Origin: Candidatus Lustribacter telmatis
GTDB lineage: Bacteria; Vulcanimicrobiota; Vulcanimicrobiia; Vulcanimicrobiales; Vulcanimicrobiaceae
DNA length: 64,000 bases
Reading direction: 5' to 3'
Assembly (NCBI GenBank): GCA_003164045.1
Contig: PLRU01000090.1
Span: 49,532 to 113,531, forward strand
Position numbers and translations under genes: made by a program. The notes beneath the pieces are model-generated. The model worked only from the letters and a program-made list of their open reading frames with translations. It did not search any database and was not told where the DNA came from. Below are positions 12,757 to 23,775 of this stretch, piece by piece (the first letter of the stretch is position 1; the number at the start of each line of letters is the position of its first letter).

Positions 12757-15700
12757 GTGGCGGTTGCGGCGAATACGCCACGGTTGACTCCTTTTGCCCT
12801 GTGGCGATCGCGCTTGCCGGCGTCGATCGGAAATTGGTTCGCACGCGACCTGACCCGTGCTGCTCTCGACCTCGCTGAAGCGGGCCGCGTCACCCTACGC
12901 TCCGTTGAAGGCGCGAAGATCGAGGCTACCGTTGCCGACCAAGGCGGGGTTTCGTGTTCCGTCGAGTGGGCCACGGGAACGGGGCCGCAGGCGCTGCGTA
13001 GCGTGTGCACGTGCGGTTCGACCGGCGTGTGCGAACACGTCGTGGCGACGCTCGAGACCGTCCGCCGGGCCGACGAGGCGCCGGTGCCGATCGATCCCGC
13101 CGATGCGGAGATCGACCTGACGTGGCTGCCCGCAACCGACCTCGAAGCGCCGCGCGCTCGTGCCCGCAGCGTGTGGCCGGTTATCTCGTCGACCGACGGC
13201 AAGGTGCTCTCCGGCGCGCTGTATCTCGATACGCCGCGGTTGCGCGGCGTCATCCGCGATGCGGAATCGATCCTCGCGATGATGGAATCGACGCCGGCCG
13301 ACGACTGGGATAACGCCGACCGCGAACTGATCCGCGACGAAGCGGTGCAAGAAGCCTTCGGCACCCGCGTCTCGCAGCGTGCGCTCGCTCGCGCGTTGTT
13401 CCGCCTCGCGCGCCATCCGCGTACGCGATTTGACGATGAGCCTGGCGCCAACCGGCATCCGGTGGAACTCGTGCCGTTCGATATTGACGTTCGCGGAATA
13501 CGTCTACGCGCCGTGCGGGAAGGCGACCGGTTCGTTCCGGCGCTCGAGCGCGGCAACGGAGAACGCTTTACGCCCCATGGCGCCCTGATCGTCGATGGAC
13601 CGCCGTCGTGGCTGGTCGTCAATCGCACGGCGTATTTGCTCGACGATAGTTTTGATGCGAAGCGCGTGGTTGCGGCGGCGGCGGCGCAGATGCCGGCCAA
13701 CGGCAGTGCGACGAACGGGAAGCATCCGTCGATCGGCACGATCGCGCGCGTGGCGCCATTTCTTTCCGCCGAAGACCGCCATGAGCTCGGCGTCGTCGAT
13801 GCGGAAGCGCCGGCAGCATTAGCGCGCTTACGCTGGAGCGACGGAGCGTTGATCGGCCGGTTGTCGTTTATCGACCGCAAGAGCGAAGCACATGCTCCAT
13901 TCTCCGTGCACGGTGCGGTCGCGGCGAACAACGGACGCTTCGTGCGTTTTGCACCCGCGACGGCGCGCGCGTTCGCGCATCGCTTCCTTGAAGCTGGGTT
14001 CGTTCCACGCGGCGGAGATGCGTTCGCCCTGCACGATGTCGAACGTGCGGCGAATTTCGTGCGCGAAGTCGTCGGCGATTGGGATGACGTTGACGTCGTG
14101 CTCGACGACTCACTCACCGCCGTTGCGGCCGGTGAATCGGCCATCGACGTCTCGATCTCCGCCCGTCCGACCGATGTCGACGGCGAGCGCGACTGGTTTG
14201 AGCTCAACGTCGACGTCTTCGTCGGCGATGGGACCGCGCTCACGCCAAAAGAACTCGCCGCCCTCTTGCAGTCCAGTGGCCGCTACGCAGAAGTACGGGG
14301 GAAGCTATTCGACGTCGAGGCGTTGCGCATGCGGCGCACGCTCCTCGCCGAGCTGAACGACCGGCGTCGCACCGGAATGGCGGCGCTCGTCGCGCTGCAC
14401 GACGAGATTCACGAAGCATTCGGCGACGTCGCGCTCCCGGAAGAAGTCGAGATCTTGCGCGAGCGTCTACGTAATTTTGAAGGCATAGCCAGCATCGAAC
14501 CGCCGACCGCCGTCGCGGCAACGCTGCGCGATTATCAACGGCGCGGCCTCGATTTCTTAGATTATCTGCGCTCGTTTAAATTCGGCGGCGTTCTTGCAGA
14601 CGAGATGGGGCTGGGGAAATCGCAAGCGCTTTCGTCTTTGGTTTTAACGCCCGACGGGTGGCGCCGTTTTGGCGATCTGAAGCTCGGCGATCCGATCATG
14701 AATGCGCAAGGCGGCATTTCGCGCGTCACTGGGATTTTTCCGCAGGGAAAACTTGAATCGTTCCGAGTCAAGTTCTCTGATGGAGCCAGTACGCTTTGTT
14801 CTGACGATCATCTGTGGCTCGTCAATTCACCGCTCCGCAAATCGCGTGGCAATCCGCCTCGGGTGAAGACGTTGCGCGAAATTCGCGAGCGCCTACACGA
14901 TGCGGCCGGAAACGCGCGTCATTTCATTCCCATTGCCGAACCGATGCACTTCGAGCGGAACGACGAGCTTACGGTACCGCCGTATCTGCTGGGGTGCATT
15001 CTCGGCGACGGAAACATCACTCATCGTGTGGTGAGTTTGGCGAATGCGGACGTTGAGCTACTCGAGGAATGCCGCGCGTTACTTCCGACGGGTACCGATC
15101 TCGTTCACAAGGCCGCGTATGACTACGTCATTCGTCCGCAGCGAGATGCCGACGGGCGACTGGGCAGTCATCATGTTCGCAGCGCCTTGCGCGAACTCGA
15201 TCTGATGGGCTGCGGGTCGGCAACGAAGTTCGTCCCGCAGCAGTACTTGTATGCGAGCGTCTCCGATCGCCTAGCGGTGCTGCAGGGCTTGATGGATACC
15301 GACGGCAGTGTTTCACTCAAGGACAATCATGTCGAGTTTACGTCGGTGTCGGAGATCCTGGCGCAAGACGTCGCGTTCCTCGTGCGCTCGCTAGGCGGTG
15401 TCGCTCGGCTCCGCATTAAGGCCAAGCCGACATACACCTATAAGGGTGAAAAACGTATCGGAAAGCCCGCGTATCGCGTCTCAATCGCGATGCCGCCGGA
15501 TTACAATCCGTTCCGCCTTTCGCGTAAGGCCGATTCGTATCGGGGACGCGTGAAGTATCATCCCGTACGCGCGATCGTTGAGATTATTCCGGAGGGCGAC
15601 GCCGAGATGCAGTGCATCGCGGTCGATTCGCCCGACCATCTCTACGTTACTGATGACTTCATCGTCACGCATAACACGCTCCAAGTAATCGCGCAGCTCT

Positions 15701-16986
15701 TGCACCGCAAGGAAGTTGACGGAGCCGCTCCTGCGCTTGTGATCGCGCCGACCTCGGTTACGCACACGTGGGAAAACGAAATTGCCCGGTTCGCGCCAAA
15801 CTTGACGACCCTGCGCCTGCAATCGGGCGCGGATCGCGCGCAACGTTATGCAGAGCTCGAAAATTACGACGTCATTATCACGTCATATGCTTTGGCGCGG
15901 CTTGATGCAGAGCAATTGGAACGCTTCAACTTTCGTACGCTGATTCTCGATGAAGCGCAGAACGCGAAGAACCCAAGCTCGCAAATTGCCAAAGTCGTGC
16001 GCAATCTGCGCGCGGATCATCGTTTGGCGCTAACCGGTACGCCCGTTGAAAACTCGCTACGCGATCTGTGGTCGATCTTTGCCTTTGTCGAACCGGGATT
16101 ACTCGGGTCAGAGGCGTCGTTCCGCCGGCGGTTTGAGAACCCGATTGCCGAGGGCGACGAAGTTGCGGCGCATCAACTGCGGTCGCGGCTTGAGCCGTTC
16201 GTGCTTCGCCGAACCAAAGAAGATGTGGCGCGCGAGCTTCCTGAGCGCACGGAACAGATCATCGAGTGTGATCTCTCGCCGTTGCAGCGCCGGCTCTATC
16301 GCGGTATCGCCGAGGCCGCGCGTCGCGATGTCATCGCAAACATCGGCGGCGAGAACGGTATGGAAGGCGCGACGGTCCACGTGCTGGCGGCGCTGACGCG
16401 CTTGCGCCAGGTCTGCGCGCATCCCGGGCTCATTCTGCCCGAGTACATCGACGAACCTGAAGCGAGCGGCAAGTTCGACGCGTTCATCGAGACGGTCGAA
16501 GAAGTGCTCTCCGGCGGTCACAAAGTGCTCGTATTCTCGGCGTTTGCCTCGATGCTCAAGATCATGCGCACGGCACTCTCGAAGCGTGACGTCGTCTTGG
16601 GGTATCTCGACGGCTCGACGAAAGATCGCGATCGTCAGGCCGAGGTTGAACGCTTCATGTCGGCCGACGGTCCGCCCGTGTTCTTGTGTTCCCTCAAAGC
16701 GGGCGGCGTCGGCTTGACGCTCACCGCAGCCGATTACGTCATCCTCTACGATCCGTGGTGGAACCCGGCGGTCGAACGTCAGGCGATCGACCGCACGCAT
16801 CGCATCGGGCAAACGCGTCCGGTCACGGCGTACCGGATGGTGACCGCCGGTTCGGTTGAAGAAAAGATTCGCGCGCTCGCCGAGCGCAAGAGCGCGCTCT
16901 CGCGTTCGGTCATCAAAGCCGACAGCGCGATCGCGAAATCGCTCACCAAAGACGATCTCGAGTTTCTCTTCGCCGACCCCGCGTAA
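12757..16986 (+). CDS. SNF2-family DNA helicase with SWIM zinc finger, interrupted by an intein
   Basis: The 1409-residue precursor would give a 1057-residue helicase after splicing. The N-terminus has a SWIM-type zinc motif (CTC at 84-86, CEH at 92-94). The RecA-like domain 1 has motif I split by the intein (DEMGLGK at 615-621, then TLQ from 974), LILDEAQNAKNP (DExx box) and LALTGTPVENSLRDLW. Domain 2 carries LCSLKAGGVGLTLTAADYV and DRTHRIGQ. SNF2 enzymes are ATP-driven DNA translocases; the bacterial SWIM-containing type has no settled role. The start is GTG, 22 bases after clpC. Removing residues 622-973 restores the canonical DEMGLGKTLQ, the main proof of the intein boundary. Confidence 0.95.
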   Translation: MAVAANTPRLTPFALWRSRLPASIGNWFARDLTRAALDLAEAGRVTLRSVEGAKIEATVADQGGVSCSVEWATGTGPQALRSVCTCGSTGVCEHVVATLETVRRADEAPVPIDPADAEIDLTWLPATDLEAPRARARSVWPVISSTDGKVLSGALYLDTPRLRGVIRDAESILAMMESTPADDWDNADRELIRDEAVQEAFGTRVSQRALARALFRLARHPRTRFDDEPGANRHPVELVPFDIDVRGIRLRAVREGDRFVPALERGNGERFTPHGALIVDGPPSWLVVNRTAYLLDDSFDAKRVVAAAAAQMPANGSATNGKHPSIGTIARVAPFLSAEDRHELGVVDAEAPAALARLRWSDGALIGRLSFIDRKSEAHAPFSVHGAVAANNGRFVRFAPATARAFAHRFLEAGFVPRGGDAFALHDVERAANFVREVVGDWDDVDVVLDDSLTAVAAGESAIDVSISARPTDVDGERDWFELNVDVFVGDGTALTPKELAALLQSSGRYAEVRGKLFDVEALRMRRTLLAELNDRRRTGMAALVALHDEIHEAFGDVALPEEVEILRERLRNFEGIASIEPPTAVAATLRDYQRRGLDFLDYLRSFKFGGVLADEMGLGKSQALSSLVLTPDGWRRFGDLKLGDPIMNAQGGISRVTGIFPQGKLESFRVKFSDGASTLCSDDHLWLVNSPLRKSRGNPPRVKTLREIRERLHDAAGNARHFIPIAEPMHFERNDELTVPPYLLGCILGDGNITHRVVSLANADVELLEECRALLPTGTDLVHKAAYDYVIRPQRDADGRLGSHHVRSALRELDLMGCGSATKFVPQQYLYASVSDRLAVLQGLMDTDGSVSLKDNHVEFTSVSEILAQDVAFLVRSLGGVARLRIKAKPTYTYKGEKRIGKPAYRVSIAMPPDYNPFRLSRKADSYRGRVKYHPVRAIVEIIPEGDAEMQCIAVDSPDHLYVTDDFIVTHNTLQVIAQLLHRKEVDGAAPALVIAPTSVTHTWENEIARFAPNLTTLRLQSGADRAQRYAELENYDVIITSYALARLDAEQLERFNFRTLILDEAQNAKNPSSQIAKVVRNLRADHRLALTGTPVENSLRDLWSIFAFVEPGLLGSEASFRRRFENPIAEGDEVAAHQLRSRLEPFVLRRTKEDVARELPERTEQIIECDLSPLQRRLYRGIAEAARRDVIANIGGENGMEGATVHVLAALTRLRQVCAHPGLILPEYIDEPEASGKFDAFIETVEEVLSGGHKVLVFSAFASMLKIMRTALSKRDVVLGYLDGSTKDRDRQAEVERFMSADGPPVFLCSLKAGGVGLTLTAADYVILYDPWWNPAVERQAIDRTHRIGQTRPVTAYRMVTAGSVEEKIRALAERKSALSRSVIKADSAIAKSLTKDDLEFLFADPA
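14620..15675 (+). other. Intein with LAGLIDADG homing endonuclease in SNF2 Walker A motif
   Basis: This is an in-frame insertion of 352 codons between GLGK and TLQ of the helicase. Position 1 is Ser, the splicing block A reads LVLTPDGW at positions 7-14, and a block-B-like CSDDHLW lies at 60-66. Two LAGLIDADG-type motifs (LLGCILGDG, 123-131; LQGLMDTDG, 221-229) indicate a homing endonuclease, both ending in the Gly-Asp-Gly or Thr-Asp-Gly acid position. Block F/G is CIAVDSPDHLYVTDDF ... IVTHN, with the terminal His-Asn at 351-352 and Thr as the +1 extein residue. All residues required for class 1 splicing are present, so both splicing and endonuclease look intact. Confidence 0.95.
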
Positions 16987-21310: not shown

Positions 21311-22006
21311 TTACGGGAGCAGCGCGCCGTCGAATGCGTTGCGGCCGTAGCGGCGGAGTTCGTCTGCCGTTACCGGACGGCAGCTGCGGTCGATGTGTTC
21401 GCACCAGCGCACGTTGCGGAAGTCGGCCCCGTTTACGCGTGCGCCGGAGAAGTTTGCACAGCGTTTGTCGTCGTTGTCGCCGCACAGTGCCGCGCCGTTG
21501 AGGTTGGCGTTTTCCAGATTCGCATCGCGGAAATCGGCTCCGGGCAATGAAGCACCGTGCATATCGACGCCGTGCATATCCGCATGCTTGAAATCGCAGC
21601 CGATACATTGGGCCAGAAGCGCGTGGGTATCGACTTTGGCAAACGACATGCGGCCGAGCTCGGCTCCGGTAAGGTGGACGCCGCTTACTCGCGCGGTGCT
21701 GAGCGTTGCGTCGCCGAAATCGGCGCCGGTGAAGTTCGCACCGCGCAGGTCGGCGCCGTCGAGGTGCGCGCCGCTCAGGTCGACGCCGATGAACTTGGCA
21801 TCGCGCAGATCGGCGTCGCGCAAGTTTGCGTTTTGCATATCGGCGCCGATGTAGGTAACCCCGTGCAAATCACGGCCGTGCAGATCCACGCCGCGCATGC
21901 TGCAGCCGATACATTGTGCGCCGAGAGTAACGTTGTCGGCTCCCGCGGGCGTTGCGGTGAAGAGGAGCGCCAGCGCGGCGTACGCGGAGATCGATCGTAA
22001 GAGCAT
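21311..22006 (-). CDS. Secreted pentapeptide-repeat protein with CIGC motifs
   Basis: The 231-residue protein starts MLLRSISAYAALALLFTATPAGAD, a clear signal peptide. I prefer this start because the longer ORF start overlaps the upstream gene and skips the promoter-like region. About 25 A(D/N)LxG-type pentapeptides follow (DLSGAHLDGADLRGANFTGA), expected to fold as a right-handed beta-helix in the cell envelope. The motif LGAQCIGC opens the first block and LLAQCIGC the second; two further Cys pairs occur (CGDNDDKRC, CEHIDRSC). There is no CxxCH, so haem binding is not indicated. The gene lies 53 bases downstream of the BlaR-like gene, which ends in the same repeat type. Redox or metal sensing is possible but unproven. 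Confidence 0.85.
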   Translation of the reverse strand: MLLRSISAYAALALLFTATPAGADNVTLGAQCIGCSMRGVDLHGRDLHGVTYIGADMQNANLRDADLRDAKFIGVDLSGAHLDGADLRGANFTGADFGDATLSTARVSGVHLTGAELGRMSFAKVDTHALLAQCIGCDFKHADMHGVDMHGASLPGADFRDANLENANLNGAALCGDNDDKRCANFSGARVNGADFRNVRWCEHIDRSCRPVTADELRRYGRNAFDGALLP

Positions 22007-22017
22007 GGTGCATTTAC

Positions 22018-22032
22018 CTACTATAGAATTAG
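22018..22032 (-). promoter_or_regulatory. Shared AATTCTnTAGT motif, copy 2
   Basis: On the minus strand this reads CTAATTCTATAGTAG, 11 bases before the pentapeptide-protein ATG. It includes a good -10 hexamer (TATAGT). It lies in the gap between the BlaR-like gene and the pentapeptide gene, which suggests the latter has its own regulated promoter. Confidence 0.55.
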
Positions 22033-22059
22033 TTGCAAGGGGCAAAGAAACGGAAGCGC

Positions 22060-23775
22060 TCATGGGAGCGAGCTTCCGATAAGCTGGATGCCGGATTCGT
22101 TCGCGCCGGTGAGCGAGGCGTGACCGAGATCGACACCCGTTAGCGTGGCGTTGCTTAAGTTTGCGCCGTCGAGGATGGCGTGGCTGAAATCGACGCCGGT
22201 GAGCTTCGCTAGGCGGAAGTTCGCATTCCTGAGAATCGCGTGACTGAAATCCACCCCTTGAATCGTCGAGTGCGCAAAGTTCGCGCCGGCGAGGTTCGCC
22301 CCGGTGAAGTCATCGCCAACCATCGAGAGGTTGCTCAGGTTGATGCCGCTCAAGTTGCGGCCGGAAAAATCGCAGCCGATGCAGTGCCGCACGAGATCGC
22401 GCGTCACCGGGCCGCTCGTGTCGGCCGCAATGACGACGCCGCGCCGGTTCAGCGCGTCGCCGAGTTTTTTCTGAACGTCAGCGGCGATTTTCTGCCCCAT
22501 GTTTTCCGCGTCGTTCGTGTCGACATTCGGATCCACGTCGGCGACGCGCACCGGCGCCGGCGGCGGGACGGGCTTCGCCGCAACCGAGGGCACGGGCGCC
22601 GGCGCCGGCTTCACGACCACATGTGGCGCGGCACTCGGGGCCGGCGCGGACGTCGCGACCTCGTCGATGGATTCCATGGGTTCTACCGCAGGTTGTGCCG
22701 TGTTGCTTTGTGCGAGCAAGATCGGCGGCGCGCTTGCAGCGAGCCCGGCAACGCCGGTGGCCGCAAGAATCGCAATGGTGAACGCCGCCGCGCCGACGTG
22801 ACGCCGGCCGACCGGGCTCTCGTCGAGCAGGCGCTCGATGCGCACGGAAATCTGTTTGCGCGTCAACATCGCGCCGGGCGCAACGACGACGTGTTCGGGC
22901 ATGCGCATCTCTTGCGCCATCCGCCACAGCGTCGATGCGTACCGCTTGGCATCATGCGTGCGCGCAACGACGGCTTCGTCGGCAGCGACTTCGCGTTCGA
23001 GCGCGATGCGCCGGCCGAGAATCCACACCAGCGGGTTGAACCAGAAGAGGCGTTCGGTCGCGCGTTGCGCGAGGTTCGACCAATCGTCGTAGCGCGCAAG
23101 GTGTGCGTACTCGTGCATGATCAGCGGCTCGATGGACGTGAGCCCGTCGGCGGTCGCCATGTCGGTCGGCAAAAGAATGACGGGGCGCCGGAAGCCGACG
23201 GCGATCGGCGTTTCCGTTTCGTACGAGAGGCGCAAGTAGATCTCGCGCCCGGCGGTTGTGGTGAGCCACGGCAGCTCGGTCGCGAGCGTGCCGTCGAGCG
23301 GGCTCGAGCGCGCTTTGAGGCCGCGCACGCGGACGAGGCTGCGGCCGAGGCCGATGAGGCCGATCAGCGCGCCGAGCACCCAGACGCCGACGATGGAGCG
23401 CGCGACAATGGGTGCGAGATCGGGCGGTCCAGGAACGTGCAGAAGGGCCGTGCGCGCCGGTGCCGGACCGGCATCCTCAGATGCGCCGCCGGCGGGAGAG
23501 CCGCCGGCGGCCGTCACGTGCGCCGCAGGTCCGTTCGGCATCGGCTGCATGTCTTCGGCCGCGCCGGCTAAGGTGCCGCGCACGAGCATCACGGCCAGGA
23601 TCGCCACCGGCGCGAAGCCGGCGGCAACGAGGGCGATCGACCACAGCGCCTGCCGCGTCGCGCCGGCCGGCCGGGCGAAGGCGATCAAGCCGGCGACCAG
23701 AGCGCCCAGCACGACGGAGAGCAGCAAGCTGGCAACGAGCGCCCATATCGCCGCGGAGACGATCGTGCCGATCAT
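22060..23775 (-). CDS. BlaR1/MecR1-type M56 metalloprotease with C-terminal pentapeptide-repeat domain
   Basis: This 571-residue membrane protein has several N-terminal membrane helices and an M56 zinc-protease core with HEYAH at 221-225 and downstream LEREVAADE. Another membrane helix follows (about 328-348), then a long Pro/Ala linker and an extracytoplasmic domain. In BlaR1 that domain is a penicillin-binding sensor; here it is CIGC (465-468) followed by about 20 pentapeptides (DFSGRNLSGINL...). The blaI-like gene overlaps its start (ATGA), as in classical pairs where the protease cleaves the repressor after signal binding. The inferred role is a transmembrane sensor whose ligand is not a beta-lactam or is unknown. 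Confidence 0.88.
   Translation of the reverse strand: MIGTIVSAAIWALVASLLLSVVLGALVAGLIAFARPAGATRQALWSIALVAAGFAPVAILAVMLVRGTLAGAAEDMQPMPNGPAAHVTAAGGSPAGGASEDAGPAPARTALLHVPGPPDLAPIVARSIVGVWVLGALIGLIGLGRSLVRVRGLKARSSPLDGTLATELPWLTTTAGREIYLRLSYETETPIAVGFRRPVILLPTDMATADGLTSIEPLIMHEYAHLARYDDWSNLAQRATERLFWFNPLVWILGRRIALEREVAADEAVVARTHDAKRYASTLWRMAQEMRMPEHVVVAPGAMLTRKQISVRIERLLDESPVGRRHVGAAAFTIAILAATGVAGLAASAPPILLAQSNTAQPAVEPMESIDEVATSAPAPSAAPHVVVKPAPAPVPSVAAKPVPPPAPVRVADVDPNVDTNDAENMGQKIAADVQKKLGDALNRRGVVIAADTSGPVTRDLVRHCIGCDFSGRNLSGINLSNLSMVGDDFTGANLAGANFAHSTIQGVDFSHAILRNANFRLAKLTGVDFSHAILDGANLSNATLTGVDLGHASLTGANESGIQLIGSSLP

Follow-up and report, generated by a model that had tools for sequence, protein, structure and literature searches.

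A class 3 intein that carries a LAGLIDADG endonuclease and is probably active splits the Walker A motif of a SNF2-family helicase of Candidatus Lustribacter telmatis

Class 3 inteins are defined by a WCT triplet, and in these proteins the attack on the upstream junction comes from the cysteine of block F and not from residue 1 (PMC5222942, PMC7664689), while class 1 inteins possess an aspartate at position F:4 (PMC4031507, PMC6195587). Most known members of the class come from phages, Actinobacteria and Deinococcus. In a survey of 1,701 class 3 inteins it was defined operationally by a cysteine at F:4 without Cys1, and LAGLIDADG motifs were present in most of these inteins (PMC7891396); several papers word the definition literally as a position 1 without a class 1 nucleophile (PMC3196547, PMC5050341). 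Insertion between the lysine and the threonine of a P-loop has been termed classic (PMC5050341). Work on Deinococcus radiodurans (Brace 2010, Southworth and Perler 2002) characterised its class 3 Snf2 intein, whose splicing, going by the passages of PMC3196547 and PMC5222942 that cite this work, was shown experimentally; the gene is also discussed in a passage of PMC11219805. The intein described here shares its class and its type of host protein, a bacterial SNF2 helicase, with that of D. radiodurans, a likeness drawn from the descriptions in these citing papers.

In the window analysed here, a stretch of 64,000 nucleotides from contig PLRU01000090.1 of Candidatus Lustribacter telmatis, the gene for a SNF2-family helicase (12757–16986, + strand) encodes 1,409 amino acids without an internal stop. 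An insert of 352 codons (14620–15675, +; residues 622–973) splits its Walker A motif between lysine and threonine (DEMGLGK|TLQ, with GLGK|TLQ as the core), and its removal joins ...LADEMGLGK to TLQVIAQ... in a protein of 1,057 residues. Pfam finds LAGLIDADG_3 (PF14528, 2.7e-14) within the insert and SNF2-rel_dom and Helicase_C on the joined helicase, and a curated model of NCBIfam, 'sll1366 family intein-prone helicase' (589 positions), matches as far as residue 621, directly before the insert. The GC content is 57.7% in the intein vs 63.5% in the extein. By eye, the N-terminus of the helicase carries a CxC..CxH (SWIM-like) pattern near residues 84–94. Elsewhere in the window, an ORF of 250 amino acids (21311–22063, −) encodes a pentapeptide-repeat-like sequence (ADLRGANFTGADF...).

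The insert is in frame, restores a conserved protein upon removal, contains blocks A, B, F and G, ends in His-Asn and is followed by a threonine at +1, one of the three residues (Cys, Ser or Thr) that mark an intein at this position. Since the helicase of a sister species is uninterrupted and relatives of 53–65% identity are occupied at the identical site, the insert is more than a chance feature and is confirmed, at the level of sequence comparison, as a real and codon-exact intein. An earlier note on this DNA had placed an intein of 352 codons exactly in the SNF2 Walker A motif; its coordinates proved right, excision restores DEMGLGKTLQ, and the motifs it had listed (Ser1, VLTPDG, two LAGLIDADG motifs, the His-Asn end and the +1 Thr) were all found.

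The AlphaFold model of the intein, built with the alignment of its relatives (pLDDT 97.1, pTM 0.94), confidently displays a HINT and a LAGLIDADG fold. When compared to the PDB with foldseek, PI-SceI and TliVMA match the whole length of the intein, the class 3 DnaB inteins of Mycobacterium smegmatis (MsmDnaB, 6bs8) and M. chimaera (MchDnaB, 6riy and 6rix) match the HINT part and I-DmoI matches the endonuclease. As Pfam and the alignment indicate, both LAGLIDADG motifs have kept the acid residue that marks a homing endonuclease of this fold, LLGCILGDG at intein residues 123–131 (14986–15012, +) and LQGLMDTDG at residues 221–229 (15280–15306, +). One orthologue (G126, L040) possesses LLDTGG for LMDTDG and LADG for LGDG; its splicing residues are intact and its endonuclease looks degenerate. 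The genome of the window (G000) harbors a second intein outside the window, in the replicative helicase DnaB (L002, G000:C80:252190-255639); the sequence of this intein (Cys1, Asp at F:4, Ser+1) assigns it to class 1, and it has LAGLIDADG-like motifs.

Several other inteins resemble that of the window. The two mycobacterial DnaB inteins share the WCT triplet, the His at B:10 and the HINT fold with it, and that of M. smegmatis also its P-loop insertion site (PMC6195587, PMC7664689); in contrast, they are mini-inteins without an endonuclease and with Ser+1 (and Ala1 in M. smegmatis), whereas the window intein has a full LAGLIDADG domain, Ser1 and Thr+1. Matches to 752 phage records concern class 3 inteins of helicases, terminases and other ATPases with 37–42% identity over 93–100% of the length, for example PhiPA3 gp233, annotated as a SNF2 helicase, but these differ in their hosts and diverse exteins and do not sit in the orthologous cellular gene. 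Helicase inteins of Hymenobacter (43–45% identity) share the ADDMGLGK|T junction and the class (Ala1, WCT), but belong to Bacteroidota, start with Ala1-Gln-Pro-Leu and form a separate, well supported clade. Further relatives (35.7% identity) reside on Enterobacteriaceae plasmids of Enterobacter, Citrobacter and Klebsiella (H48-H52, e.g. KR827394.1), and one of these matches falls under TraD. Streptomyces loci (L050, L052-L054, L057-L059 and others) form a large class 3 intein clade in GEVGSGK|T, the host being by eye a RecG-like helicase.

Within Candidatus Eremiobacterota, the inferred phylum of the window, the helicase was detected (E <= 1e-150) in 37 of 149 genomes, nine of which carry the intein, and in the genus g9 six helicases are occupied and four are empty. 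The earlier note had proposed to compare the insertion site with intein-free relatives and had suggested recent or active homing. The closest relative, a member of the same genus (G001), indeed possesses a contiguous helicase with an empty site and the same downstream gene. When its helicase is compared with that of the window, identity is 0.76 inside a tract of about 97 codons around the insertion vs 0.98 outside, and 24 of the 31 amino-acid differences fall within codons −53 to +43 (97 of 586 codons). This divergent tract consists of an upstream arm (codons −53 to −1; 14461–14619, +), a candidate for co-conversion, and a downstream arm (codons 0 to +43; 15676–15807, +). Because occupancy is patchy, the site of the congener is empty and the flanks are divergent, the suggestion of recent homing gains support, and the window intein was probably acquired recently. 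The natural reading of the flank divergence is co-conversion as the intein was copied in.

Alternatively, the flanks may have diverged by fast or compensatory local evolution, or the intein-free congener may have been the converted copy instead, which we consider unlikely but serious enough to be weighed. Variability is generally a little higher in the flank region (mean entropy 0.53 vs 0.41), and comparison with third genomes marks neither the window genome (G000) nor G001 as the altered copy. Against this alternative, a null model weighted for this variability gave a mean of 10.0 differences in the best-scoring stretch and never reached the observed 24 in 5,000 shuffles; moreover, differences are 14.5 times as dense inside the tract as outside it for G000/G001, vs 3.3 times for the next pair and a median of 1.3, and the insertion sits close to the middle of the tract. 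At fourfold sites, identity is about 0.5 within the tract as well as beyond it, so that these sites are too diverged for an independent check of conversion, and a donor search among the genomes of the phylum revealed none whose flank is closer to that of the window than ordinary divergence would give. On the reading of co-conversion, the endonuclease would cleave helicase genes that lack the intein, within the conserved codons of the P-loop, and the intein would be copied in during repair; the window lineage would have gained it once it had separated from the congener, about 160 bp of upstream and about 130 bp of downstream flank being co-converted in the process.

In the intein tree the genome G103 groups with the inteins of the window and of g9, and a grouping of G103 with G008 is rejected (AU p 0.015), while in the extein tree G103 groups with G008 and its neighbours. 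This conflict, the only one that supports intein transfer within the family, argues modestly for a passage of the intein from one lineage to another; monophyly of the g9 inteins was not rejected (AU p 0.17). The record JANYGA010000177.1 (L044), apparently identical with the 9,173-base contig G008:C144, is titled Rhodospirillales bacterium but placed in the family of the window and probably represents a mislabelled MAG.

The residues expected of class 3 splicing are all present. Block B (SDDHLW) contains His64 (B:10), Leu65 and Trp66 (B:12; 14809–14817, +), the class 3 tryptophan, which is invariant across the aligned relatives; like block F, this block can be aligned with the class 3 DnaB inteins 6rix and 6bs8. 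Block F (MQCIAVD) supplies Cys332 (F:4; 15613–15615, +), the predicted first nucleophile, which is equally invariant and aligns with the cysteine of the DnaB inteins 6rix and 6bs8. Block G (VTHN) holds Thr350 (G:5), the third WCT residue, followed by the penultimate His351 and the cyclising Asn352 (15667–15675, +). The threonine at +1 of the C-extein (15676–15678, +), which is the Walker A threonine, is predicted to be the second branch point, and the serine at residue 1 (TCG; 14620–14622, +) is probably not a catalytic nucleophile. With Ser1 and Cys332 the intein agrees with the operational definition of class 3 and departs from the literal one, which allows no Ser, Thr or Cys at position 1; it equally departs from class 1, as F:4 is a cysteine instead of an aspartate and position 1 is variable. 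Tori and Perler are said to have widened class 3 in 2011 to inteins with Ser1 and WCT, e.g. Catera Gp206. We thus file the window intein, by its sequence, in the already known splicing class 3, on the operational definition only. Its notable feature is this class 3 chemistry and not a rare Ser1.

Conservation among relatives underlines this assignment. In the nine orthologues of the phylum, all inserted at the identical site, the His, Trp, Cys, Thr, His and Asn of the splicing blocks are the same in 9/9, whereas at residue 1 six possess Ser and three Ala. Scans of bacterial genome contigs and viral contigs with patterns from the single sequence gave no match, while patterns from an alignment of three orthologues yielded 45 loci in bacterial genome contigs and 80 in viral contigs, from which the wider set of relatives comprises 39 inteins of other bacterial genomes and 73 of viral contigs. 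Among 121 distinct related inteins, Trp B:12, Cys F:4 and Thr G:5 are kept in 121/121, a count in which Trp is partly built in for the bacterial genomes, as their patterns contained HLW, and unbiased for the 73 viral inteins, whose patterns lacked the W, C and T residues. An alignment of 72 inteins has only 14 invariant columns, which include His64, Trp66, Cys332, Thr350, His351 and Asn352 (the last two being built in by the His-Asn end required at extraction) and do not include residue 1. Position 1, read directly after the nearest Gly-Lys where this was close, so that a few distant relatives may be misplaced, shows at least ten identities among the 121 relatives, mostly Ala, but also Ser, Gly, Phe, Cys, Leu and others. 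Of the nine orthologues, two use TCG and four AGC or AGT for Ser1, and the Ser/Ala state changes at least three times on their tree; because of these mixed codons and repeated changes, position 1 looks like a free, non-essential site. The helicases of G127 (L039, Ser1) and G129 (L041, Ala1) are identical at 578 of 582 positions over the part compared and their inteins are 81.5% identical, a contrast that would fit very fast intein evolution or allele replacement.

The class 3 signature of WCT and His at B:10 makes the internal Cys332, not Ser1, the likely first nucleophile. The earlier note, right about the intein, its place in Walker A and its intact-looking LAGLIDADG endonuclease, had taken Ser1 and Thr+1 as the nucleophile pair. 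This part needs correcting: given the WCT triplet, the invariant Cys at F:4 and Ala1 in three orthologues of the same site, splicing of the window intein very probably does not run through a Ser1/Thr+1 pair.

A dual-nucleophile form, in which a regained Ser1 beside Cys F:4 bridges class 3 and class 1 in evolution, is a very unlikely prospect; if true, the Ser/Ala alternation in the near-identical helicases of G127 and G129 would be a ready-made experiment. We give hardly any credence to the related view that Ser1 and Cys332 both open the N-terminal junction, as two entry routes. Both side chains are there, but the route through Ser1 needs the activation geometry of class 1, while block B reads SxxH, not TxxH, Asp at F:4 is missing and Ser1 is under no conservation pressure. 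That the intein belongs to class 1, with Ser1 performing the initial N-O shift and Thr+1 as second nucleophile, might be read from the serine at position 1 in the window and five orthologues; it is very improbable in view of Cys in place of Asp at F:4, of Trp B:12 and Thr G:5 completing the class 3 triplet, of Ala at position 1 in the remaining three orthologues and most relatives, of the TCN and AGY codons and repeated Ser/Ala changes, and of the DnaB intein of the same genome, which by contrast has Cys1 and Asp F:4. Decay does occur in the family, as the G126 orthologue without the acid of its second motif illustrates, but a loss of splicing or of endonuclease cutting is scarcely plausible for the window copy, which keeps an open frame, every splicing residue and both acids, in a helicase that retains all its domains and that an unspliced P-loop insert would inactivate.

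We hence favor, with high confidence, the view that a chromosomal SNF2 helicase is interrupted in its Walker A motif by a full-length class 3 intein, probably active, in which a LAGLIDADG homing endonuclease is embedded, a reading drawn from sequence and structural model. In the proposed course of splicing, which would follow translation, Cys332, aided by His64 and Thr350, would attack the Lys621-Ser622 bond and form a branched thioester at block F, the N-extein would then be transferred to Thr+1, cyclisation of Asn352 would release the intein, and an O-N acyl shift would restore GLGKT and, with it, ATPase activity.

The window intein leaves the understanding of splicing unchanged. A literature search found no paper linking inteins with Eremiobacterota, and the full-length inteins of the nine Candidatus Eremiobacterota genomes enlarge class 3 by a group that is apparently undescribed. 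Its orthologues with Ser1 and Ala1 at the same site offer a test of how important Ser1 is in WCT inteins, and the pair of an occupied and an empty site within one genus is unusually clean for tests of homing and co-conversion.
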